Origin: Mucilaginibacter sp. OK283
GTDB taxonomy: Bacteria > Bacteroidota > Bacteroidia > Sphingobacteriales > Sphingobacteriaceae
Direction of reading: 5' to 3'
Length of the DNA stretch: 64,000 bases
Assembly (NCBI RefSeq): GCF_900110415.1
Contig: NZ_FODR01000010.1
Location: 124,001 to 188,000, forward strand
The notes under the pieces are model-generated. The model worked only from the letters and a program-made list of their open reading frames with translations. It ran no database searches and was not told where the DNA came from. Shown here one piece after another: positions 5,155-22,307 of this stretch (the stretch's first letter is position 1; each line of letters begins with the position of its first letter). The position numbers were made by a program, and so were the translations under genes.

Positions 5155-6687
5155 TCAATTGGCCGTGAGTGCCACCGGCGCCAGTTGCCTTGGCGAACCA
5201 TCGGGTCCAACCGCTATAATATTATCAAAAATTACCCTTGAACCTGGCTTGATGCTGTTAAGGGATGCCGTCATGGAATCATTCAGGGTGTTGCCCGATC
5301 CAACCTGTACCGATGCGGTTTCGCGGGGGTTGGCTATAATAAGGCTGAACCGAGTGATTTTGAACCTGGCGTCAAAATCAAAATTATCCAGCATGGCAAA
5401 AATAGCATTCTGAGCTTTTAAGGCCACGGTAGGTACGCTGCCGCTTGACCGGCCCGAGAATTTTGCAACTGGATCAGGAATGCGTTTGGCCCTGAACTGG
5501 GTATGGCTTAATACCTGTACTTTACCCGGCGCAATTTCTGCCGATACCGAAACGGTTACCGTACCAGGAGTAGTAACCCTGGCCACATATTTCCCTTCGG
5601 AACCACTGAGCGTGCCGCCCGAAATACCTATCCTGATGCTTTTTGATGGGATCCCTGGTACAGACACTGATACCGGGTTATCTACCCCGATATAAAATAC
5701 ATTCATCTTATCGGGCGACACCACTGCCGATGGCCTTGAAACAATGTAACGCTGCTCGGGCGTGGTATAGGTTTTTATAGTACCATCGGTTTGTTTTACG
5801 CTGATGGTGCCCTTCCAGTTAAATACCCCCTCGCGGCTGGTATTTACATTGTATACACCCCGGCCATCTTTAACTGATATGGGGCTGCCGCCAACCTGTA
5901 CCGTTGGGGTTGACCGTGAATCATAAGCAGTTAAAAATACCTGCGCGGTGTAAGGCTGTCCTTGTATCAGGTACGATGTTGGCGCCACGGCCACTGCCTC
6001 AAATTTATCCAGGTTCACTACTGCCTGGTCCATTTTGCCCAGTATCTTTTTCACTACTTCCGATTCGGCATTTTTGTTATCTGCCTGGATGCGCGATAGT
6101 ATCGTAAACGTCGCGGTTAAGGGCACGCCTTCACCAAAGTTCAACTCTTCCCAGTTGCGGTGGCTGGGGCCTCGTTTTACCGGGTCATCGGCATTAAGAT
6201 TGAATGATACCGTTTTGCTATCCTGCGGGCCTAACAAAGTGAGCAGCCTTTCGCGGGTATCATTAATTTTTTGTTTAAGCGCGGTAGCCCGCTTTTTGTT
6301 AATCATTACATCAAAGCCGATATCAAGGTTATCGCGCTGTTTTAAGTCGCCGGTTACAAAGTCGTATCCGTTGCTTTGATTACTAAGTTCTGCTTTGATG
6401 TCCCTGATGTAAGTATCCAGTTCTGTTGTTACTTCCCTTGCCTGTTTTGCTTTTTCATATACAGGTTTGGCCCTTTCGGGCGATTCCTTAAGGCGGGTTT
6501 GCTCAAAAGTGCTGAACAATTGCTGTACCGAATTACCCACGTTTGCCGCCGAAGCAGTTAAGCTGTCGTTTATGGTTTTAAACGCGTCCAGTATGGTTTC
6601 TGATACATTCAGGGCCAGCATTGCCAATAAAACCAGGTACATGATATTGATCATCTTTTGCCTGGTGGTTTCTTTTCCTGCAGCCAT
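5155..6687 (-). CDS. gldM: Type IX secretion motor protein GldM
   Basis: The 510-residue protein starts with a short cytoplasmic tail and one membrane helix (TTRQKMINIMYLVLLAMLAL, residues 8-27). This is the signature N-terminus of GldM/PorM, followed by NVSETILDAFKTIN and a long periplasmic part of helical and beta-sandwich domains. GldM forms the rotary inner-membrane motor with GldL and reaches across the periplasm to the GldK/GldN ring. The length matches the family. It is last in a minus-strand cluster, separated from gldL by a 343-base spacer that contains a hairpin repeat. Confidence 0.92.
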   Translation of the reverse strand: MAAGKETTRQKMINIMYLVLLAMLALNVSETILDAFKTINDSLTASAANVGNSVQQLFSTFEQTRLKESPERAKPVYEKAKQAREVTTELDTYIRDIKAELSNQSNGYDFVTGDLKQRDNLDIGFDVMINKKRATALKQKINDTRERLLTLLGPQDSKTVSFNLNADDPVKRGPSHRNWEELNFGEGVPLTATFTILSRIQADNKNAESEVVKKILGKMDQAVVNLDKFEAVAVAPTSYLIQGQPYTAQVFLTAYDSRSTPTVQVGGSPISVKDGRGVYNVNTSREGVFNWKGTISVKQTDGTIKTYTTPEQRYIVSRPSAVVSPDKMNVFYIGVDNPVSVSVPGIPSKSIRIGISGGTLSGSEGKYVARVTTPGTVTVSVSAEIAPGKVQVLSHTQFRAKRIPDPVAKFSGRSSGSVPTVALKAQNAIFAMLDNFDFDARFKITRFSLIIANPRETASVQVGSGNTLNDSMTASLNSIKPGSRVIFDNIIAVGPDGSPRQLAPVALTAN

Positions 6688-6802
6688 TTTTTTAAGTTTT
6701 AATTTGATTTATTAATTGCTTTGATAGGGTATAAACACCTTGTGGGATGTTGTTAGCCGTAGTGAGGGGTACGAGAACTATCGGGTTTGAACGCTGGTTA
6801 AG

Positions 6803-6964
6803 ACTCACCCGGCGAGGCTGCGCCCGCCACCCTCTCTTCGGCTTCGCCGGAAAGAGGGGCTTGAAAGCGTTTTTGTTTACTTCCATTAAGGATATTCCCC
6901 GTTCAATTCCCTCTTTCCACCGCAGGTGAAGAGAGGGTGGCGGGCGCAGCCTCGCCGGGTGAGT
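6803..6964. repeat. Palindromic repeat element, copy 1 (perfect 37-bp terminal inverted repeats)
   Basis: Positions 6803-6839 and 6928-6964 are exact reverse complements (37 bp), beginning ACTCACCCGG and ending CCGGGTGAGT. Inner segments near 6847-6858 and 6910-6918 (CGGAAAGAGGG / CCCTCTTTCC) extend the pairing, so the 162-bp element can fold into one long hairpin. It fills most of the gldL-gldM spacer (6688-7030), which holds no gene. A related element lies at 22104-22270. Confidence 0.85.
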
Positions 6965-7030
6965 TTTCGCCGCCCTACATATCCACCATCCTATACCAGC
7001 GTTCCAACCCGAAAAGTCGTTCCCCTTTTA

Positions 7031-7828
7031 CTACATCCGCTGCTGATTCATAGCCGAAAGCATGTTGGCGTAGTAAACATTTAATGATGATATATTTTGC
7101 ACCAGCTTGTTCACCTCATCCTTAAACACCCGGGTTTCGCCTGCCGACTCGTGCAAACTATTCAGGGTGCCGGTAAGGCCCTGGTAAAACTGGTTAATGC
7201 GGCGCAGGTTATTATCGGCCCCGCTCAGTTCGCTCTCGTATAATGAGTTTAAATGTGCCAGGTTATGTGTTAGCTTTAAAACCTGTTGCTGATAGGCATG
7301 GGCATCATCGCGGCTATCGGCAATGGTAGCAAAGCCGGCCGATGCTTTTTCGAACATGGTACCCAACAGATCAAACTTGGACGAAGCGGTTTTTAGCTTC
7401 GCCGCAAATTCGTCTGTCCCTAATGAAGCATCAGCTATAGCGTTTATCCGGCTCATTTTATCCGAAAATTGTTTTAATCCTTCTCCCAAATTGTTAATCT
7501 TTTCGGGGCTTAGGTCTGCATGGGTAAGTAAGCCGTCAAGGGCAGCGGTAACGCCGTTGGTTTGATGAACCGGCCTGTGCCTTGTTACTTCGCCGGCATA
7601 ATCAACAGCCAGTTCGGGATATACTTTTTCCCATTCCGGCTCTTCGGCCGGAGGGAAAAAGCCCAGGGTAAAAAACAGCAGGGCTTCTACAGATAAACCA
7701 AGCCCTATCATATAGGTGCCAAGCTGGCCACCCCAGTGATTAATTTTAAACATAGCGCCAAGGATAACTATACTGGCACCCCAGGAAATGGCTATATGCA
7801 GCCAGTTGATTTTTTTGCTCTTTAACAT
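7031..7828 (-). CDS. gldL: Type IX secretion motor protein GldL
   Basis: The 265-residue protein has two membrane helices near the N-terminus, about residues 10-26 (LHIAISWGASIVILGAM) and 37-57 (GTYMIGLGLSVEALLFFTLGF). Glu48 in helix 2 sits where GldL/PorL carry the proton-pathway glutamate, and Lys28/His31 lie between the helices. A cytoplasmic region rich in coiled coil fills residues 100-265. GldL supplies the stator part of the proton-driven secretion/gliding motor with GldM. It begins 28 bases after the beta-barrel gene. The call is secure. Confidence 0.92.
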   Translation of the reverse strand: MLKSKKINWLHIAISWGASIVILGAMFKINHWGGQLGTYMIGLGLSVEALLFFTLGFFPPAEEPEWEKVYPELAVDYAGEVTRHRPVHQTNGVTAALDGLLTHADLSPEKINNLGEGLKQFSDKMSRINAIADASLGTDEFAAKLKTASSKFDLLGTMFEKASAGFATIADSRDDAHAYQQQVLKLTHNLAHLNSLYESELSGADNNLRRINQFYQGLTGTLNSLHESAGETRVFKDEVNKLVQNISSLNVYYANMLSAMNQQRM

Positions 7829-7856
7829 GATATTTGATTTTTAATGGTTTTACAGA

Positions 7857-8483
7857 TCAGAATTTTACATAAATGGTTACCGCCGAATTAAGGCCAGGCA
7901 GCAGGCCCCGTAACCCGCTGCTTACTTTGCTGGCCTTATCGCCATAGGTTGATGTGGCCGAACTGGTTGGAATAAACCACCCCAAATCCGTACGCATACC
8001 TATGTTTTTGAACAGGTGGATATTACCCAGCCCGGTGCCGATATAGGGTCTTACTTTCGACATGTAGATAGTGTAGTTGGGTGTAGTGCCTATCCCTTCC
8101 CTATACACATTATTTGAAAAATAATAAGCAATACCGGTAGATATGTACCACTTACGCGCCAGCCAGTCGCTTTGGCCGTACAGGGGCTGCCAATCGGCAA
8201 TGGCAAATACCGATGTGCGGTTAAACTGGGCACCGCGGCCGTTGTATTGCACCGTCATCCCCGGGAAGGTATTGAAACCTATCCTGGCGTTAAATGATTT
8301 CAAAAAACTGTATGATCCCTGGATGCCTAACCCCTGCGTACCAACCTGTACGCCAAATGATGATGTTGGAAATGCACTATACTCGGGCAGTACCTGGGCG
8401 CTGGCCTTGCCGCAGCAAAACAACAGCCCCGATATGAGCATCATCAATAAAAACTCCTTGAATAATTTTGCTTGCGTTGTCAT
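7857..8483 (-). CDS. Small outer-membrane beta-barrel protein inside the gld cluster
   Basis: I do not recognise a named family. The 208-residue product has an N-terminal signal sequence (LLMMLISGLLFCCGKASAQ). A series of amphipathic strands follows, alternating with short turns (FGVQVGTQGLGIQGSYSF, KWYISTGIAYYF, VRPYIGTGLGNI). It ends in Phe (AVTIYVKF), the usual C-terminus of an outer-membrane barrel of about 8 strands. Its start overlaps the gldN stop by 4 bases (ATGA), so the two are translationally coupled. PorP/SprF is the usual barrel near gld/por genes, but that family is about 300 residues and this protein lacks recognisable similarity to it. A structural role in anchoring the secretion ring is inference. 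Confidence 0.7.
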   Translation of the reverse strand: MTTQAKLFKEFLLMMLISGLLFCCGKASAQVLPEYSAFPTSSFGVQVGTQGLGIQGSYSFLKSFNARIGFNTFPGMTVQYNGRGAQFNRTSVFAIADWQPLYGQSDWLARKWYISTGIAYYFSNNVYREGIGTTPNYTIYMSKVRPYIGTGLGNIHLFKNIGMRTDLGWFIPTSSATSTYGDKASKVSSGLRGLLPGLNSAVTIYVKF

Positions 8484-9385
8484 AGCTTCTCCTCCTTTTT
8501 ACTATCTGTTTGTGCTAAATTTTTTGCGTTTACGCCCCTGGGGTTTTGCCAGATGTGTTTTTTTAGGTCGGCAATTTTTTGTTCAAGTAATACCGCTTCG
8601 GTGCTGCCCGGCTCCAGTTGCCCACTTTGTACCCCACCCGGCGACGCTTGTTTTACCAGGTAGGCCGAAAACTTGTGCTGCATAAACACATCATCCAGCG
8701 TAAAATCAAAAATGTCCTTGTCGGGGTTGCTCACATCCTCCTGCACCAGCGTGTACCGCAGCTGTGGAAAATAAAGCCAGAAGGCCGGGGTAAATGCCAG
8801 GTTGTCGGCCAGGTCGGCTGATGTGCTGATGTGCATCATGGGGGCCAGCGCTACAATGCGGGTGTCAACCCGGCCGCGCTGCCTGTCAAAAAACACATCT
8901 TCCTTAATCCGGAACCGGCGTACTTTATCGGGGTTGAACTCGTTAAGCGCCATCCTTGAGCCTGTTTGGTTACCGTCTTTATCAAAAATTGGTATCAGTA
9001 CCGAGTCGGCAAAGCGCAACTCGCCTTGTTTGGCGCTGAGTTTCTTTTTCAGATCCTCTTTTTCATAAGGCGTAAGCTTGCCTGATTTTATCCCTTTCAT
9101 GATAGCTTCCATAAGGGATTTACCAGGGATGGTAAGGATGCTGTTGCCCGAGTCGGAAAGGTCGATATCCCGCCAAACCTGTGCATATAACCTGATGTTG
9201 GCGGCATTAGCCTTTGGATAGGGGAAAGGCTTTGCTTTTCCTAAATCGGCCGATTTAATTAAATTATCATATGCCGGCAGGGTATCTGTTAACGTACTAT
9301 CGGCCACTATTGCCTGGGCAAAGGACATACCCCTGCCGAAACCGATCAGCAGAAGGGTTTCAATCACTATTATTATCTTTTTCAT
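8480..9385 (-). CDS. gldN: Type IX secretion ring protein GldN
   Basis: The protein has 301 residues with a signal peptide (IETLLLIGFGRGMSFAQA). The GldN/PorN core is visible: YAQVWRDIDLSDSGN, then RRFRIKEDVFFDRQRGRVDTRIVALAP, then FWLYFPQLRYTLVQEDV. The stretch FTLDDVFMQHKFSAYLVKQ corresponds to the family's FDDIFQKRxFSSYI motif. GldN binds GldK to form the periplasmic ring under the outer membrane. It starts 4 bases after gldK. In the standard order gldN follows gldM. Here it directly follows gldK. Confidence 0.9.
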   Translation of the reverse strand: MKKIIIVIETLLLIGFGRGMSFAQAIVADSTLTDTLPAYDNLIKSADLGKAKPFPYPKANAANIRLYAQVWRDIDLSDSGNSILTIPGKSLMEAIMKGIKSGKLTPYEKEDLKKKLSAKQGELRFADSVLIPIFDKDGNQTGSRMALNEFNPDKVRRFRIKEDVFFDRQRGRVDTRIVALAPMMHISTSADLADNLAFTPAFWLYFPQLRYTLVQEDVSNPDKDIFDFTLDDVFMQHKFSAYLVKQASPGGVQSGQLEPGSTEAVLLEQKIADLKKHIWQNPRGVNAKNLAQTDSKKEEKL

Positions 9386-9389
9386 AAAA

Positions 9390-10682
9390 TTATCGTTTAG
9401 CGTATTTTCTTGTTTTCACCTGCTCGCCGGGGAGTTCAAAGGCGGCCATCACGCAGCGGAAACCTATGTAGGAGTGGGCGTTACCCTGGTCTTCAAAACT
9501 ACGGGTATCACTGTTCAGCATCTCGCCGTTATCTTTCCATGATCCGCCGCGTACTACCTTTCGTTTTAATAGGGGCGAGTCTTTATCGGCGGCATCATAC
9601 AGCAAAGCCGGGTTTAAATCGTTTACCAGTTGCGATGCCGAAGGGCTAAAAGCGTCCATCGTCCACTCAGATACGTTGCCGGCCATGTTGTAAATGCCAA
9701 AGGCGTTGGGGGTATATGAGGTAACCGGCAGCGTAAATGTTGATCCATCGCTGGAGTAGGCGCCCTCGCCTTGTTTAAAGTTGAGCGAAAGTTTTTCCTT
9801 ACCGGTAGTTTTATCAATAGTGGTTTTTACTGTTCGTTCTACAGTATCAGCTGGATCGAGCTTGGCTTCGGCGGCGTATTGCCACTGTGCTTCGGTAGGC
9901 AAACCAAAACTTAGTTTAAAATTTTTAAGGTTGGGATTGTTCCTGATGAGCACCTTTAACTGCGTACTGCGCCAGTCGGCATAAGCACGGGCCTGTTTCC
10001 AGGTTACCCCGACTACAGGGTTATACTCATAAATTTTATTGCTGAAGTAGTTGGCGTCCATCACCGTCATTTGCGCGTTCGGAAAATCCGTCGACCATAC
10101 ATGCTCGTTAGGATAAACGCCGACCGTATCCATTACATACTGGTTGTTTTTTTCGCCATCCATGCGCACGTAATAAAACCGGTAGTTCATTAATGCCGGG
10201 TCGGGCATACGCTGGCCATTGAGCATGGTCATCATACCGGCCAGCTTTTCTTTTACGTCTGCCGGTGCGCGTTTCCATAAGGGCGAAATCTTGTGCACTT
10301 TATCCCAGTCTATCAGCCTGATCTCCTTGCGGTTTTTACCAACGGTTGCCCCTGTGGATGGCAGGTAAAAGGAATCATCGTGGAGGTAATCGGTAATGGC
10401 TACCGAATCGGCAACCCAGTTTACAAAGGCCTGGTATTGCTTATTGGTTACTTCGGTTTTGTCAATAAAAAAAGCGCTTACGCTTACATTGCGTTTTTCG
10501 GATTTATCATCATCATCTTGCAGTTTGTATTGGAAAGTGCCTGATGGTATATACACCATGCCTGCCGGCGGGATGAGGCGCTTTACAGAAACAGCGCGGG
10601 TGGCCGGGGTATTGTATAGTTTTGACTGGCAGGAGCTGAGCACTATTAGCAGCAAGCCTGTAATTTGAATTGACGATCTCAT
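9390..10682 (-). CDS. gldK: Type IX secretion lipoprotein GldK
   Basis: The 430-residue protein has a lipoprotein signal with lipobox LSSC (about residues 15-18). A formylglycine-generating-enzyme-like (SUMF1) fold follows: GMVYIPSGTFQ, FFIDKTEVTNKQYQAFVNW, FGLPTEAQWQYAAE, YNMAGNVSEWTMDAF, VVRGGSWKD and IGFRCVMA. In GldK/PorK this fold is structural and forms the outer-membrane ring with GldN, so it should not be read as a sulfatase modifier. It is the first gene of the minus-strand gld unit. Confidence 0.92.
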   Translation of the reverse strand: MRSSIQITGLLLIVLSSCQSKLYNTPATRAVSVKRLIPPAGMVYIPSGTFQYKLQDDDDKSEKRNVSVSAFFIDKTEVTNKQYQAFVNWVADSVAITDYLHDDSFYLPSTGATVGKNRKEIRLIDWDKVHKISPLWKRAPADVKEKLAGMMTMLNGQRMPDPALMNYRFYYVRMDGEKNNQYVMDTVGVYPNEHVWSTDFPNAQMTVMDANYFSNKIYEYNPVVGVTWKQARAYADWRSTQLKVLIRNNPNLKNFKLSFGLPTEAQWQYAAEAKLDPADTVERTVKTTIDKTTGKEKLSLNFKQGEGAYSSDGSTFTLPVTSYTPNAFGIYNMAGNVSEWTMDAFSPSASQLVNDLNPALLYDAADKDSPLLKRKVVRGGSWKDNGEMLNSDTRSFEDQGNAHSYIGFRCVMAAFELPGEQVKTRKYAKR

Positions 10683-11155: not shown

Positions 11156-11701
11156 TTATTTTAAAATACTGCCCACATAACCTTCAACTGCCCGTTGGGG
11201 AGCGCGGTTAACATAAAACGATCTGTCTTGCGGCGCCCATGTGCCCAGGCCATCTACATAGCGGTTAAACATGCAAAACGATGCGGCTATCAGCACCGTG
11301 TCGTGTATCTCTATATCTGTAGCGCCTTCGCTCCGGGCGGCATCTACCTGCTCGGTGGTTACATTTTTACCCCCTTTTTGAACACTGCCGGCAATGGTTA
11401 ATAATGCTTTAATTTTAGGCGATATATTAGCGGATGTAAAATCGGCTTTAATAGCATCTATATCGTCTATACTACAGTTAAGATAGTGGCCGGCTACCGC
11501 GCCATGCACGTTCTGGCAAAAAAAGCAGTCGTTCAGGTACGATACGTAGGTGCCTATCAACTCCCGCTCGCCACGGGTTAGCGAGTTGTCTGAGCGCAGC
11601 AAAAATTCGGCAAGGGCATTCAAGGGGGCCTCGGTTTCGGGCCGGTAAAACATCAGGCCTCTTATGCCTGGCAAGTCGTTATTTAATTCAATATGTGCCA
11701 T
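11156..11701 (-). CDS. AhpD-like CxxC protein (carboxymuconolactone decarboxylase fold), paralog 1
   Basis: I chose the ATG at 11701 because the product then starts MAHIEL, aligned with paralog 2 (MAHINV). The in-frame upstream codons come from the spacer. The 181-residue protein is an all-helical AhpD/CMD-family member. The redox motif CFFCQNVH places Cys59, Cys62 and His66 in the same register as the two paralogs, with RGERELIGTYVS before it. The C-terminal block IHDTVLIAASFCMFNRYVDGL is typical of the peroxidase-related subfamily. Such proteins can reduce organic hydroperoxides through the CxxC pair, but the electron donor and substrate here are unknown. Confidence 0.85.
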   Translation of the reverse strand: MAHIELNNDLPGIRGLMFYRPETEAPLNALAEFLLRSDNSLTRGERELIGTYVSYLNDCFFCQNVHGAVAGHYLNCSIDDIDAIKADFTSANISPKIKALLTIAGSVQKGGKNVTTEQVDAARSEGATDIEIHDTVLIAASFCMFNRYVDGLGTWAPQDRSFYVNRAPQRAVEGYVGSILK

Positions 11702-11923
11702 GGTATATTTTTTATGGTGAATAATTATTGTTGTTGAGGTGGTAGGTGTTCGGATCATTTATTTCCTCCGCACGGGAGGGGTGTGGCTGGCAATGTGCGC
11801 AAAAGCAGGGAGGGGTTTCGCCGCGCGACCATAAAAGTGTACTTGATCGCATAATTAAACCCCTACCTCCTCCTTCCCCAGGGAAGGAATCGCACATTCC
11901 ACCGCTTTTTTTCTTCCGAACAC
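11702..11923. repeat. Intergenic inverted-repeat spacer between AhpD paralogs
   Basis: This 222-base spacer holds no gene. AGGGGTTT (11811-11818) and AAACCCCT (11857-11864) are inverted copies, and C-rich runs around them (CCTACCTCCTCC, GGGAGGGG) add partial pairing. It looks like a degenerate palindromic element of the kind found elsewhere in the window. Confidence 0.5.
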
Positions 11924-12469
11924 CTATGGCGTATTGGGAGGTAAAGTATACCCCTTTGCCATACGTATGCCCATTTCTGCATAAGCTTCCGGATCTGTTG
12001 GTGTAAGGCTGGCCAGCCCGTCTACATAACGGTTAAACATGCTGAATGACGCGGCGATCAGTACCGTATCGTGTAACTCGCGGTCGGTAGCGCCAAGACT
12101 TTTGGCGGCGTCAATATCGGCCTGTTTAACTTCGGTACCCAGGATTTGCACTTTACCAGCTATGTTTAATAGCGCTTTCAGCTTATCGCTTACCGGGGCC
12201 TCCTGCATATCTCTCAATACCTCGTCAACAATAAGGGCATCGTCTTCATACAGGCACCTTGCCGCAGCGGCATGGCTACTGTAGCAAAAGGTGCAGTTGT
12301 TGCGGTACGATACATATGCGGCTATCAGTTCGCGCTCAGCGGGTGATAGGGTAGATTCGCCCCGCAGCAGTATCTGCGCCAGCTCATATAAAGGCTTACC
12401 TGTTTCGGGCCTGAACATGACCAGCGAACGGATGCCCGGAACGCCTTCGGGTACATTGATGTGTGCCAT
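11924..12469 (-). CDS. AhpD-like CxxC protein, paralog 2
   Basis: This 181-residue protein is closely related to its neighbour at 11156-11701. It has the same start (MAHI), RPETGKPLYELAQILLRG, the redox motif CTFCYSSH (Cys59, Cys62, His66) and the C-terminal block LHDTVLIAASFSMFNRYVDGL. The start codon lies 5 bases from an octamer tandem-repeat tract (12474-12567), which therefore sits in its leader or promoter. It follows the MFS gene by 127 bases on the same strand. The likely role is thiol-based peroxide or radical handling linked to whatever the receptor and MFS protein transport. Confidence 0.85.
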   Translation of the reverse strand: MAHINVPEGVPGIRSLVMFRPETGKPLYELAQILLRGESTLSPAERELIAAYVSYRNNCTFCYSSHAAAARCLYEDDALIVDEVLRDMQEAPVSDKLKALLNIAGKVQILGTEVKQADIDAAKSLGATDRELHDTVLIAASFSMFNRYVDGLASLTPTDPEAYAEMGIRMAKGYTLPPNTP

Positions 12470-12473
12470 ATTT

Positions 12474-12567
12474 TTATTGAATTATTGAATTATTGAATTA
12501 TTGAATTATTGAATTATTGAATTATTGAATTATTGAATTATTGAATTATTGAATTATTGAATTATTG
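12474..12567. repeat. Octamer tandem repeat (GAATTATT), about 11.6 copies
   Basis: The unit GAATTATT recurs without interruption, with its G at 12479 and then every 8 bases to 12567. It fills most of the 127-base gap between the MFS stop and the start of AhpD paralog 2 and abuts that start. Perfect purity suggests recent slippage. Confidence 0.97.
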
Positions 12568-12596
12568 CTCTTTAAAAACCTTTTCGCTTTAACCTT

Positions 12597-13853
12597 TCAG
12601 CTTTTGCCTTCTCTTTTATGGCCAAAAAGCACTACCAGCAGACCTACCACAAATACTAACGAAAAAATGAATATGGCATTACCATAGCCGCCCAGGGCCG
12701 ATACCAGTATGCCTACAAACAATACGGCTGTTGCGGTAAATATTCTGCCTATGTTAAAGCAAAATCCCGTTGCTGTGGCACGGATGCCGGTTGAAAATAG
12801 CTGTGGTATGTAGGCTGATAATACACCCTGGCTGGCGCCGAAAAATAAAGCCAGTACGCAGATCTCGGCATAAATAACAGGGCTGAAGGTGCTGTTGGTT
12901 TTAAACAACACGAACGATAAACCGGCACATACCGCAAAACAAATCAGCATCGACCGGCGCAAGGTAAGCAGGTTTACCAGCCACCCCGAAAGGAAACCAC
13001 CTGTTAGGCCACCCATACCCAAAAACATCATGCTTAAGCCACGCTCTTTGGCTGCATCATGATTGGTGATAAGGCTTTGCACCCAGGTTGGCAGCCAGGA
13101 AAATATGGCCCACAGGCCTATTAACATAGTGCCAAAGGTCAGCGAACCTACTACCAACTCCCGGCGATGGGCGGGCGATAGTAATTTATTTAGCGGGTTG
13201 TTGCGGTTGGCAATATCGTTACGATAGCTTAGCCAGCCTGGCGATTCGGATAAAACCCAGGCGCCAATCAGCGCCAGGGCCAGCGGGATAACGCCGATAA
13301 GAAAACCTGACCGCCATGACGATACCACGTAATTGATAAGCCCGGCCGAAAAGATGCCCACGGGGAAGGCGATAGACAGGATTCCGATAACAACGGCTTT
13401 GCTTTTGGCAGGCCAAACTTCGCTTATAAGGGTAATGGTTGTTACCAACACGCCACCTACACCAAAGCCGCTCATAAAACGGCATAGCACAACGCCCCAC
13501 CAGGTGGGCATTTGGCCTGTTAAAATGGTGAAGATGCCATAACAGCTAATGGCCATCAGTAAGGCGGTTTTACGGCCCATTTTGTCGCTGATAACGCCCC
13601 ATGTAAAGCCGCCCAATGCCCAGCCAAAAATGAAGATGGCGTTAATATAGCCACTGATGGAGTTAATTTCGTTTGGAGGCAAATTGCCCTGCAAATCTTT
13701 TACCACCACCGGCAGGTAAACCGACATCAGGGTAGATACCGTGCCGCCAAGCGCGCTGCTCAAAAAACAAATAGCAAATAGTATTACCCGGTAAGGTACG
13801 CTGATATCTGTTTGCGGTTTTAAACCCGGCTTATCAATTACAAGTGTGCTCAT
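12597..13853 (-). CDS. Major facilitator superfamily transporter
   Basis: The 418-residue protein has about 12 hydrophobic segments. The MFS loop 2-3 signature GVISDKMGRKTALL lies at about residues 87-100, and FMSGFGVGGVLVTTITLISEVWPAKSKA resembles the aromatic acid:H+ symporter / sugar-porter branch. A second-half equivalent loop (GWLVNLLTLRRS) is also visible. It starts 5 bases after the TonB-receptor stop, so the pair is co-transcribed and may move the same solute across the outer and then the inner membrane. The substrate is not readable from sequence, and export is not excluded. Confidence 0.85.
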   Translation of the reverse strand: MSTLVIDKPGLKPQTDISVPYRVILFAICFLSSALGGTVSTLMSVYLPVVVKDLQGNLPPNEINSISGYINAIFIFGWALGGFTWGVISDKMGRKTALLMAISCYGIFTILTGQMPTWWGVVLCRFMSGFGVGGVLVTTITLISEVWPAKSKAVVIGILSIAFPVGIFSAGLINYVVSSWRSGFLIGVIPLALALIGAWVLSESPGWLSYRNDIANRNNPLNKLLSPAHRRELVVGSLTFGTMLIGLWAIFSWLPTWVQSLITNHDAAKERGLSMMFLGMGGLTGGFLSGWLVNLLTLRRSMLICFAVCAGLSFVLFKTNSTFSPVIYAEICVLALFFGASQGVLSAYIPQLFSTGIRATATGFCFNIGRIFTATAVLFVGILVSALGGYGNAIFIFSLVFVVGLLVVLFGHKREGKS

Positions 13854-13858
13854 GTTGT

Positions 13859-16624
13859 TTATTTTAAAAGGTCATCAAATACTATGGATACGTAATAAAT
13901 AGCGCCAATGGCCGGCGAACCGTACGACTGGTAGATGTGCCGGTTGAAAATATTGCTGCCCCCCAGCTTAACTGTCGATTTGAACTTTGGGAGCTTTTTG
14001 CTGATCTGCGCATCAACCACCGAGTAAGCATCTACACGGCCCGGACGCGTACCGTTAAACGTACCGTACCAATCAAACGCGCTTTGCCAGTGCCAGGCCA
14101 GGTTAAAGCCAAAGTTGTTGGCAAAATTGCTGTTGCCAAAAGTGGTATTGGTAGCCCATTTAGGCGTGTTAAAGGCTGCAATGTTATTTGGATTTGCGTT
14201 GCGCAGATTGAAAGTTGATAGCGTAGCGTTGGCACCCAGGGCATATCCTTTATCAAACAAATAAGTTAAGCCTGCGCTTGCGCCCTGTGCCGATACTTTA
14301 TCGGGCGCGTTGGTGTATAGCTGGAAGGCATGTACCTTGCCACCGGGAATATCACTTGCCGATGCTGTGGTAACTTTGCCATCGGCACCTAATATTTGAT
14401 CTTGTGGCTGTATTACTACCGTGTTCAGGATAAAGTTGGTATAGCTGCTGTAGTAATAGTTTACATCAACCAGTAATTTATCCATAATTAAGCCTTTATA
14501 GCCCAGCTCAAAGGCCTTTTGCTGCTCGGGCTTAATATAGGCCACATTTGATTTTTGCAATAACCCTTTGTTTTGCTCAACCGCTTGCGGAAAGGGTGTT
14601 CCGCCGGCAACAGCCGCGCCAAATGCCGCACCAAAGGCACTTACTGATGATGCAGTGAACGAGTTTTCATAAACGTTTAACCCTGCACTGTTTTTGGGCG
14701 CGCCACCTAAAATGGTGATAGGGCCTACGTTAAGGTGAATAAACTGATCAACCGGGGTAGGGTTCCGGAAACCGGTTTGGTATGATGCCCTGAAATTATG
14801 GGTTTTATCAACGGTATAAACTGCCGAGAAGCGAGGCGTAAAGCTGCCTTTAAAGTTTTCGTTTTTATCATAACGGATAGAGGCCGTTAACTTCAGGTTA
14901 TCGTCAAACAGTTTTTTGGCGGCCTGCATAAACGCGCCGTATTCGGCAATTGTTACGCGGTTGGTTTTATCATCAAACAAGCTGCCGTTGGTAAACATGC
15001 GGTAATCGCGGTAACTGCCGCCGGCCAGCAGTTCAAACACTTTAATAGCGCTCGAGAAATCGTATTGCCCATCAGCATGGTAAAATTTACTTGCACTAAA
15101 TACACCCGCACCGCTTAGGCCGTAGTTATGAATAGATGCATCTTTGGCAGCGTTGAAGGCAGCTGTGCCCGGTAAAAAACGGCCCTGATCTGCAAAAGAC
15201 CTTGCTGCCGCATTATCGTGGGCGGTTACGCCGCTGGCGTTGCCGTTGTATGCTGTTGAGTAACGGGTAAACCAGGTATCGTCGGCTTTATCGGGCGTTA
15301 CGGTGTTGCCGCTTAAATCCTGTACCCAATCGCGGTTGATGAACTGCGCCAGCGAACGGGTATTATAGGAATCGTGCGAGTTTTCGGCTACGGAGTATCC
15401 GCGGATAAAAAAGTTACTGCCTTTCAGCTCCACCCTGTGGGTTTGCAGTACAAAGTTATTCAAATCAAAACGGCTGCTGCCGGTATAGCTGGCGGTTCCT
15501 TTACCAAAGTTGTACTGGTAAATGGCCTCCAGGTTATTGCTGATGCGGTAATGCAAAGCGCCGTTTAACTTAAGGCTGTATACGTTATAATTCATCAAGT
15601 CTTTTTCCTCGTAACCAGTTCTCGATACCAGGCCGATGCCGGGAAGTGTACGGGATACTTCATCGCCGTAAATATTCAGCGCGTCGCGTCCGGGGTTATT
15701 GGGCCCCCGTTGGGCAACCGGGGTTGATGCGCTTACATCGGTATAGTTTTCGGCATACCAATCCCTGCCGGTTAAATACGAGGCGTTAATTTTTAAGGCA
15801 AATCTGTCGTTGAAGGCTTTGGCATATCGCGCAGCAAAATCATATAACCCCTGTGGCTTTACAGATGATTCGCCAAAGTGGTTCATTCCGGTTTTAGCCT
15901 GCAGAGTTAAGCCCTGGTATTTGAAGGGATCTTTTGTTTTTAACGACAATAAACCATTAAAGGCTACGGGGCCATATAAAGCTGATGCCGCACCTGGTAT
16001 AACTTCGGCGCTTTCGATATCAATATCCGATGCGCCGAAAAGGTTACCTACCGAGAAGTTGAGGCCGGGTGTTTGGTTATCAACACCATCAACCAACTGC
16101 AAAAAGCGGCCGTTACCAGTGCTGTTAAAGCCACGGGTATTTACCTGTTTGTAGGTTAAGCTGCTGGTTACCGCTTCAACCCCTTTTAAGCTTTGCAAGC
16201 CATCATAAAACGTGAAAGAAGGATTTTCCTTGATAGCTTTCAGGCTCATTTTTTCGATACTAACCGGCGATTGCAATATGCTTTGGTTAATACGGGTAGC
16301 AGATGATACAACCTCGTTTAGTACGATGGATTTTTGCTGTAATTTGAGGCTTACTTCGCCGGCGGTTGTAACATTGTTTTCTATTTGCTCATACCCTACG
16401 GCAGATATAATGAGCGTAAAGGGCGGCTTAATTTTATTAAGGTTGAGGGAGTAATTACCCTTCGAGTCGGTAATGGTACCGGTTAATTTTCCTTTAACGG
16501 TAATGCTGGCGCCCACAACAGCCTGACCGGTTGAGGCATCGGTTAGGGTACCCGTTATTTTGCTTTCCTGCGCAAACAGGTTGATTGACGAGAGCAGTAA
16601 TATGATAAATAAAAGTTTTTTCAC
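13859..16624 (-). CDS. TonB-dependent outer-membrane receptor
   Basis: The 921-residue protein has a signal peptide (LLFIILLLSSINLFAQ) and a CarboxypepD_reg-like domain at about residues 22-100 (ITGTLTDASTGQAVVGASITVKG). A plug domain follows at about 110-235 (VNTRGFNSTGNGRFLQLVDGVDNQTPG, GAASALYGPVAFNGLLSLKTKDP), then a 22-strand-type barrel ending YYVSIVFDDLLK. No SusD partner lies beside it, so it is not a standard SusC/SusD glycan system. Metal chelates, cofactors or aromatics are all possible. It sits between AhpD paralog 3 (34 bases upstream) and the MFS gene (5 bases downstream). Energy would come from an ExbB/ExbD/TonB complex such as that at 40749-43715. Confidence 0.92.
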   Translation of the reverse strand: MKKLLFIILLLSSINLFAQESKITGTLTDASTGQAVVGASITVKGKLTGTITDSKGNYSLNLNKIKPPFTLIISAVGYEQIENNVTTAGEVSLKLQQKSIVLNEVVSSATRINQSILQSPVSIEKMSLKAIKENPSFTFYDGLQSLKGVEAVTSSLTYKQVNTRGFNSTGNGRFLQLVDGVDNQTPGLNFSVGNLFGASDIDIESAEVIPGAASALYGPVAFNGLLSLKTKDPFKYQGLTLQAKTGMNHFGESSVKPQGLYDFAARYAKAFNDRFALKINASYLTGRDWYAENYTDVSASTPVAQRGPNNPGRDALNIYGDEVSRTLPGIGLVSRTGYEEKDLMNYNVYSLKLNGALHYRISNNLEAIYQYNFGKGTASYTGSSRFDLNNFVLQTHRVELKGSNFFIRGYSVAENSHDSYNTRSLAQFINRDWVQDLSGNTVTPDKADDTWFTRYSTAYNGNASGVTAHDNAAARSFADQGRFLPGTAAFNAAKDASIHNYGLSGAGVFSASKFYHADGQYDFSSAIKVFELLAGGSYRDYRMFTNGSLFDDKTNRVTIAEYGAFMQAAKKLFDDNLKLTASIRYDKNENFKGSFTPRFSAVYTVDKTHNFRASYQTGFRNPTPVDQFIHLNVGPITILGGAPKNSAGLNVYENSFTASSVSAFGAAFGAAVAGGTPFPQAVEQNKGLLQKSNVAYIKPEQQKAFELGYKGLIMDKLLVDVNYYYSSYTNFILNTVVIQPQDQILGADGKVTTASASDIPGGKVHAFQLYTNAPDKVSAQGASAGLTYLFDKGYALGANATLSTFNLRNANPNNIAAFNTPKWATNTTFGNSNFANNFGFNLAWHWQSAFDWYGTFNGTRPGRVDAYSVVDAQISKKLPKFKSTVKLGGSNIFNRHIYQSYGSPAIGAIYYVSIVFDDLLK

Positions 16625-16658
16625 AGTGATTTGGTTTTAAATTAGTTAGGGTAATGGC

Positions 16659-17219
16659 TTATTTTTTTAAGTGATCATAGCCTTGCGGCAGGCGGGTATA
16701 ACCATGGTTAACCAGGCGATCGGCCAGGATGTTATAGTACCCGGCATCGGCAGGTAACGCTGTAGCCAGGCCATCAACATAGCGGTTGTACAGGCAAAAA
16801 AGAGCAGCTATTAGTACGGTATCGTGAATTTCGATGTCCGTCGCGCCCGCAGCTTTAGCCCGGTCAATTTCGGCGGAGGTTACATTTTTACCGCTTTGGC
16901 CGGTTAGTTTGGCAATGGTGAGCAGTGCCTTCATTTTTTCGCTCACTGGTGCTGTCTCGATGTTTTCTTTGATTTTTCGGGCGGTATCATTTTCGCCTAA
17001 ATACAAGTCGGCAGCGGCGGTGTGGGCGGTAGTACAAAACTTGCATTGGTTGCCGTGCGATACGATGGTTGCTATCAGCTCGCGGTCGCCCTCGGATAGG
17101 GTCGACGGGCCGCGAAGCAAAATTTGGGTCAGGTCGCGAATAGGTGCAGCACTTTCTTTGCTGTACTCCAATAAACCGGTTATGCCCGGTAAATGGGATT
17201 CAAGAGGAATATAAGGCAT
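16659..17219 (-). CDS. AhpD-like CxxC protein, paralog 3
   Basis: The ATG at 17219 gives MPYIPLESHLPGITGLLE, in register with the other two paralogs. A longer frame to 17321 would add 34 residues read from low-complexity spacer. The 186-residue product has CKFCTTAH (Cys59, Cys62, His66), preceded by DRELIATIVSHGNQ, and the block IHDTVLIAALFCLYNRYVDGL. CxxC followed by AH is the classic AhpD arrangement. It is the first gene of the receptor/MFS cluster and the most diverged of the three copies. Confidence 0.85.
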   Translation of the reverse strand: MPYIPLESHLPGITGLLEYSKESAAPIRDLTQILLRGPSTLSEGDRELIATIVSHGNQCKFCTTAHTAAADLYLGENDTARKIKENIETAPVSEKMKALLTIAKLTGQSGKNVTSAEIDRAKAAGATDIEIHDTVLIAALFCLYNRYVDGLATALPADAGYYNILADRLVNHGYTRLPQGYDHLKK

Positions 17220-17418
17220 TTTAATTTGAAAATTTGAAGATTTGAAAATTGCCGGAGAGGTAATTAGCTTATCGATACTCTTACTACGCCACTGCCGCGT
17301 TTTTGCTCTTGCTAAATGCAAAGCAGCAAACTGCGTTAAAGCACACAGGCAAATTCCAATAAAAGCAAATCAATGGTACTAACAGTACCGTCCGGAAAAA
17401 TGAATTAAAAAGAGGGGA

Positions 17419-22103: not shown

Positions 22104-22270
22104 ACTCACCCGCCTGTTCGCAGTAGTCGAACTGCACCGCTCTCGGGCGATTGCAGTGTACAGACGCTCGAAAATTTGAATTTTATTTCGCAAACCCTAA
22201 GCCTCGTTCAAGCCCCATCTTTCCTGCACAGCCGAAGAGAGGGGGACGAGCGCAGCGATGCCGGGTGAGT
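22104..22270. repeat. Palindromic repeat element, copy 2 (diverged)
   Basis: The element is bounded by ACTCACCCG (22104-22112) and CGGGTGAGT (22262-22270). Its right 37 bases (22234-22270) match the right arm of the element at 6803-6964 at 31 of 37 positions by my count. The left arm has drifted. The two copies have nearly the same total length (167 and 162 bp), so they look like one family of hairpin elements. This region lies in the 320-base spacer 22038-22357, which has no gene. Confidence 0.75.
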
Positions 22271-22307
22271 CTTTGCCTGCGTTCAAATATTTACCCCTAA
22301 AACACAA

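Follow-up and report, generated by a model that had tools for sequence, protein, structure and literature searches.

The locus analysed here raises the question of what a Mucilaginibacter genome does with a row of genes for all four families of the GldKLMN (PorKLMN) type IX secretion and gliding core, arranged in an uncommon order around a gene for a small predicted outer-membrane barrel. The first-pass annotation of the window (the whole stretch of 64,000 nucleotides that was analysed) had suggested, as one possibility, a second, specialised secretion set with its own barrel, and we asked whether the row belongs to type IX secretion at all.

A second set of core genes with its own barrel

The five genes, which we call set 2, are the following:

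gldK2, 9390..10682, minus strand: ring lipoprotein of the K2 lineage described below; TIGR03525, 371.0 bits (cut-off 350); aligned to PorK 9ots_A
gldN2, 8480..9385, minus strand: ring subunit; TIGR03523, 91.7 bits (cut-off 85.9); PF19841, E 1.4e-49
set-2 barrel, 7857..8483, minus strand: predicted signal peptide and eight-stranded outer-membrane barrel (AlphaFold2); 208 residues
gldL2, 7031..7828, minus strand: inner-membrane motor subunit; TIGR03513, 176.3 bits (cut-off 68.3); essential Glu kept
gldM2, 5155..6687, minus strand: motor shaft; TIGR03517, 355.2 bits (cut-off 180); PF12081, PF21601, PF21602 and PF12080

The order gldK-gldN-barrel-gldL-gldM was borne out as a single minus-strand row, with 5/5 genes lying where the first-pass annotation had placed them. 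The products of gldK, gldL, gldM and gldN all pass their NCBIfam equivalog cut-offs (4/4), and GldM2 contains the four GldM domains defined in Pfam. The genes are separated by 4 nt between gldK and gldN, 28 nt between the barrel gene and gldL, and 343 nt between gldL and gldM, while gldN and the barrel gene overlap by 4 nt. The gldL2-gldM2 gap (window 6688-7030) holds a self-complementary element of 169 nt that matches its own reverse complement at 78%; it has relatives at window 22202-22287 and in five other stretches (L017, L018, L058, L083 and L177), and is thus a dispersed palindromic repeat.

The window genome (7.19 Mb in 36 contigs) carries a canonical set elsewhere, in the order DUF-HemD-gldK-gldL-gldM-gldN, and gives two matches to GldM_4th, so that the suspicion of a second, paralogous set with a conserved barrel of its own held. 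Nor is the arrangement the common one in the family, under an established name: the barrel was found in 11/100 relatives, all within the genus (11/61 genus genomes), and it has no family name. In a family sample, GldM was present in 287/301 genomes, and the seven genomes with two copies all belong to the window's genus. At 10 of the 11 barrel loci in the genus the complete K-N-barrel-L-M row was present, and the eleventh ends at a contig end; because of this recurrence, the row is not a chance arrangement. The flanks vary among the 11 loci. Next to set 2 in the window, at 11156-17321, three carboxymuconolactone-decarboxylase-like genes (one identified by Pfam, the other two by likeness) surround an MFS transporter and a TonB-dependent receptor, and a similar gene group adjoins set 2 in L059 and L178.

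A scan for the barrel across 84,980 species, with one genome per species, returned 17 loci, which were found in Mucilaginibacter, in MAGs titled Mucilaginibacter or Bacteroidetes, and in Olivibacter sp. XZL3 (36% identity). A second, weak barrel match in one genome (G013, locus L027; 26% identity, one internal stop) was dropped, having no Gld gene nearby.

The K2 lineage of GldK and its occurrence without SprA and PorG

Searches with GldK as the query, and then with a K2 profile, placed the window's GldK2 in a separate GldK lineage, K2, that is present in 88/400 genomes of the order and 9/22 genera (E<=1e-150). In the GldK tree, for which a midpoint root served for drawing only, 37 K2 rows and 39 canonical rows fell on opposite sides of one branch of length 1.56 with 100/100 support. 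The GldM tree contained two very long outgroup rows, and its split was left unrooted. We found no K2-like lineage described in the literature, and a gldK without sprA may have been noticed earlier in a single species.

Sorting of 82 K2 stretches, 71 of them distinct, revealed several layouts. The full K-N-barrel-L-M row was present in 24 of the 71, including two with an extra barrel before gldK2; one further stretch held a truncated full row, three had K-N-barrel, 16 had only K-N, and one had only K. The remaining 26 combined an upstream barrel with K-N, and gldM or gldL-gldM lay in the stretch for 14 of these. K2-N2 pairs lacking nearby barrel or motor genes occur also in genomes that bear a type IX system. 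The first-pass annotation had described gldN as moved next to gldK; the order itself is real, but gldN was not simply moved, since the K2-N2 unit stands alone in many genomes and is joined by barrel and motor genes in some lineages only. Two stretches of a genome in the Mucilaginibacter group (L284 and L285 of G461) hold two K2-N2 copies, with a barrel-like gene upstream of each.

We then compared the occurrence of K2 with that of the type IX translocon. Presence or absence of SprA was scored by a single profile, TIGR04189, and 24 genomes, picked from K2-positive and GldK-negative ones rather than at random, were tested with three profiles. K2 was the only GldK in 15 of the 24: Olivibacter sp. 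XZL3 (G114), G137, and 13 genomes of genus g55. Profile searches detected SprA in 0/15 of these K2-only genomes and canonical PorG in 0/15, with one weak PorG match in G137, to a 428-residue frame resembling the secondary matches seen in SprA-bearing genomes. In five of the 24, K2 occurred together with canonical GldK, and SprA and PorG were present in 5/5. The last four, of the same genus as K2-only ones, contained no GldK, SprA or PorG. Canonical GldK was accompanied by both SprA and PorG in 22/22 genomes (these five and 17 Mucilaginibacter), while K2 genomes divided into 15 with and 15 without SprA, so that K2 does not track SprA; the Fisher values for these associations take no account of how the genomes are related. 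All 17 Mucilaginibacter genomes, the window genome included, contained one SprA, with or without set 2. These results do not support the view that set 2 is a secretion set: K2-only genomes lack detectable SprA and canonical PorG, and in the window genome two sets stand beside one SprA.

No GldJ-like pattern was present among the matches listed for Olivibacter sp. XZL3 and G393 (the same as G115). Type IX CTD-tail matches numbered one or two in K2-only genomes, nine in the window genome and one in each of three SprA-bearing genomes, so that the counts add little to the comparison. A small protein of ~140-190 residues with a CTD-like tail (e.g., G000:C12:251330-251566) was matched in nearly every one of 30 genomes, including genomes that have neither GldK nor SprA, and the tail profile alone is therefore no sign of type IX cargo.

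Linking cysteine, barrels and motor

In the canonical system, a cysteine of GldK/PorK that is disulfide-bonded to PorG and SprF has been reported as "completely invariant" (PMC12635249). The linking residue is Cys343 in F. johnsoniae GldK, with Cys356 also named in the same source, and according to section 9 of that paper (PMC12635249) Type A export requires it. Alignment to PorK 9ots_A placed the linking site at Cys311 in the canonical GldK of the window genome, and at a Lys in GldK2. When only GldK frames with two motifs were counted, the linking cysteine was present in 46/46 distinct canonical sequences (from 83 loci) but in 0/67 distinct K2 sequences (of 70). GldK2 retains its lipoprotein cysteine and a cysteine near the C-terminus. 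Two GldK-like proteins from genomes outside the family (L179, 7563-8795; L180, 7194-8501) also lack the linking cysteine; they score 221 and 163 bits, against the cut-off of 350, were left out of these counts, and are possibly another cysteine-less GldK branch.

The only cysteines of the window barrel are residues 23 and 24, inside the predicted signal peptide. Among 29 distinct barrels, 28 have no cysteine beyond residue 45, and 0/29 have one in the last 14 residues, while PorG of the window genome has a cysteine in its C-terminal tail. The AlphaFold2 model of the set-2 barrel (mean pLDDT 82.0) has eight long strands, and among solved structures its fold comes closest to those of CarO (VIA-align Z 16.9, rmsd 3.0 over 162 residues), OprF and OmpA; this fold is common, so the likeness is no sign of function. 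Neither PorG nor SprF structures were among the fold matches listed. The barrel had been judged too short for PorP/SprF, and we agree: it is a predicted eight-stranded outer-membrane protein with no NCBIfam PorP/SprF match, and with no Pfam match at E<=10, the PorG family DUF6089 included. Profile-profile comparison with PorG gave a probability of 75%, and the two barrels may be distant kin. The set-2 barrel may plausibly be associated with the ring, as the first-pass annotation had proposed.

In genus g55, a different barrel lies directly before gldK2 in 19/19 stretches, and it is found also in the single stretch from genus g56. Like the window barrel, it has eight predicted strands and no tail cysteine; it differs in its position and in sequence, with an hhalign probability of 23% against the window barrel and 47% against PorG.

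Arg9 of GldM, which we take to be a motor residue, was kept in 40/40 sequences. Glu48 and Lys28 of GldL were likewise kept in 40/40 GldL proteins, 19 of them from set 2. The conserved Glu in the second transmembrane helix of GldL is described as a residue of the proton-driven motor (PMC8986121).

Selection on these genes was evaluated from dN/dS. Values of 0.03-0.10 were obtained for the barrel in five pairs and, from a single pair per gene, for window-type K2, N2, L2 and M2. Two pairs of SprA-less g55 genomes gave 0.010 and 0.019 for K2, with saturation in a third pair. Purifying selection on K2 is thus strong in genomes that lack SprA.

Two genomes of genus g54, to which Olivibacter sp. XZL3 also belongs, bear on how the motor is used. 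Both G150 and G160 have SprA, PorG and canonical GldK; their canonical loci (L327 and L330) contain gldK and gldN only, with no gldL or gldM, and the only GldM found in either genome lies inside a K2-N2-barrel-L-M row. The motor of the K2 operon may serve the canonical ring and the K2 ring alike in these cells, and it probably also powers secretion. Sharing of this kind speaks against specialisation of the motor and favors the view that the task is set by the ring instead.

A proposed machine and its alternatives

The reading that we favor, with a probability of roughly 60%, is that set 2 encodes a proton-driven motor and ring that have been uncoupled from type IX secretion and act on an eight-stranded barrel of their own. 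It draws on the K2-only genomes without SprA or PorG, the loss of the linking cysteine in 67/67 sequences, the lack of a tail cysteine in the barrels, the 24 loci with the full row, the purifying selection and the retained motor residues. From these data we infer that GldK2 and GldN2 would assemble into a lipoprotein ring or track under the outer membrane, which the GldL2/GldM2 motor would move by the proton gradient. Lacking an exposed cysteine for PorG or SprF, the K2 ring would not be tied to the type IX translocon, and its partner would probably be the co-encoded barrel, contacted and held with no disulfide; in other genera, the different eight-stranded barrel directly before gldK2 may take this part. 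Force would then reach the outer membrane or cell surface rather than SprA by way of PorG, and set 2 would have no role of its own in secretion. For the window genome, where a type IX system is present, the same independence would follow by analogy with the K2-only genomes.

It is unlikely, in our estimate, that set 2 is instead a specialised second type IX core that feeds the single SprA, exports a subset of cargo and uses the barrel in place of PorG. The window genome does have SprA and its nine CTD-tail matches, all of the Gld parts are homologous and above their family cut-offs, and in G150 and G160 the motor of the K2 operon is the only one found in cells with SprA. On the other side, sets of the K2 type persist where SprA and PorG are missing, K2 lacks the cysteine on which Type A export is reported to depend, and genomes with and without set 2 alike have a single SprA (17/17). 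The K2-N2 pairs that stand alone in genomes with a canonical set would fit the view that K2 and N2 are extra, non-tethering subunits, mixing into the canonical ring or track and tuning it as GldJ might; GldJ is likewise a GldK-like track protein and has been modelled into the F. johnsoniae track (PMC12635249, section 11). We consider this quite unlikely, given that K2 occurs without canonical GldK in 15 genomes, that N2 accompanies K2 and hence a complete second ring is encoded, and that 24 loci keep motor genes and the barrel together with K2-N2. Finally, the absence of SprA and PorG from K2-only genomes, and of any GldK from four genomes of the same genus, might indicate a relic with no present function, the remains of a type IX core that had been duplicated or lost; this seems very improbable for genes with intact frames and dN/dS of 0.01-0.10, and Mucilaginibacter retains set 2 alongside a complete type IX set.

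Some K2 loci have neighbors that hint at what an uncoupled motor and ring might do. Polysaccharide-assembly genes lie within ~4 kb of 22/69 K2 loci, compared with 0/21 canonical loci and 0/20 random stretches, although the reference genes were picked after the K2 loci had been viewed, so that the comparison leans toward K2, and one of the positives (L288, 52 bits) is weak. Wza/Wzc-type genes are upstream of K2 operons in 7/20 K2-operon stretches of one set and in a separate lineage (L171), and genes for GDP-fucose, GDP-mannose or UDP-glucose stand beside K2 in the Olivibacter group and at Mucilaginibacter K-N pairs. For the window's own locus we rejected such a link, since 0/17 Mucilaginibacter K-N-barrel-L-M loci, the window included, have a neighbor of this kind. 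The capsule/EPS neighborhood of some K2 loci is therefore a lead rather than a result, and we offer only tentatively, and with some doubt, the broader idea of a distinct Bacteroidota envelope machine that has shed secretion and disulfide coupling and drives barrels for the assembly or placement of capsule or EPS.

Compared with known systems, set 2 resembles the GldKLMN core in having all four core families, the motor residues and a predicted lipoprotein ring component; it differs in its order, in the missing GldK linking cysteine and in its presence where SprA and canonical PorG are absent. The set-2 barrel is similar to PorG (PG0189; DUF6089) as a predicted eight-stranded outer-membrane barrel associated with the same ring family, but it has neither a DUF6089 match nor the tail cysteine. 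F. johnsoniae likewise has additional subunits of the GldK or GldN kind, GldJ and GldO, with GldO a paralogue of GldN and GldJ similar to GldK (PMC9127263). In contrast to these, K2 is paired with N2 and accompanied by barrel or motor genes, and GldK2 scores above the GldK cut-off and below that for GldJ. The motor and ring families of set 2 are thus known ones, and three features of type IX systems (the linking cysteine, SprA and PorG) are not matched.

One consequence is that gldK, gldL, gldM and gldN, as called by current cut-offs, are no proof of a type IX system, for Olivibacter sp. XZL3 has them and has no detectable SprA. A proposal made in 2025 holds that disulfides from the invariant GldK cysteine power secretion and gliding alike (PMC12635249), and K2, a whole lineage without this cysteine that persists where translocon and PorG are gone, offers a natural test of it. 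If the reading favored here is correct, the GldLM/GldKN motor and ring would be separable from type IX secretion.
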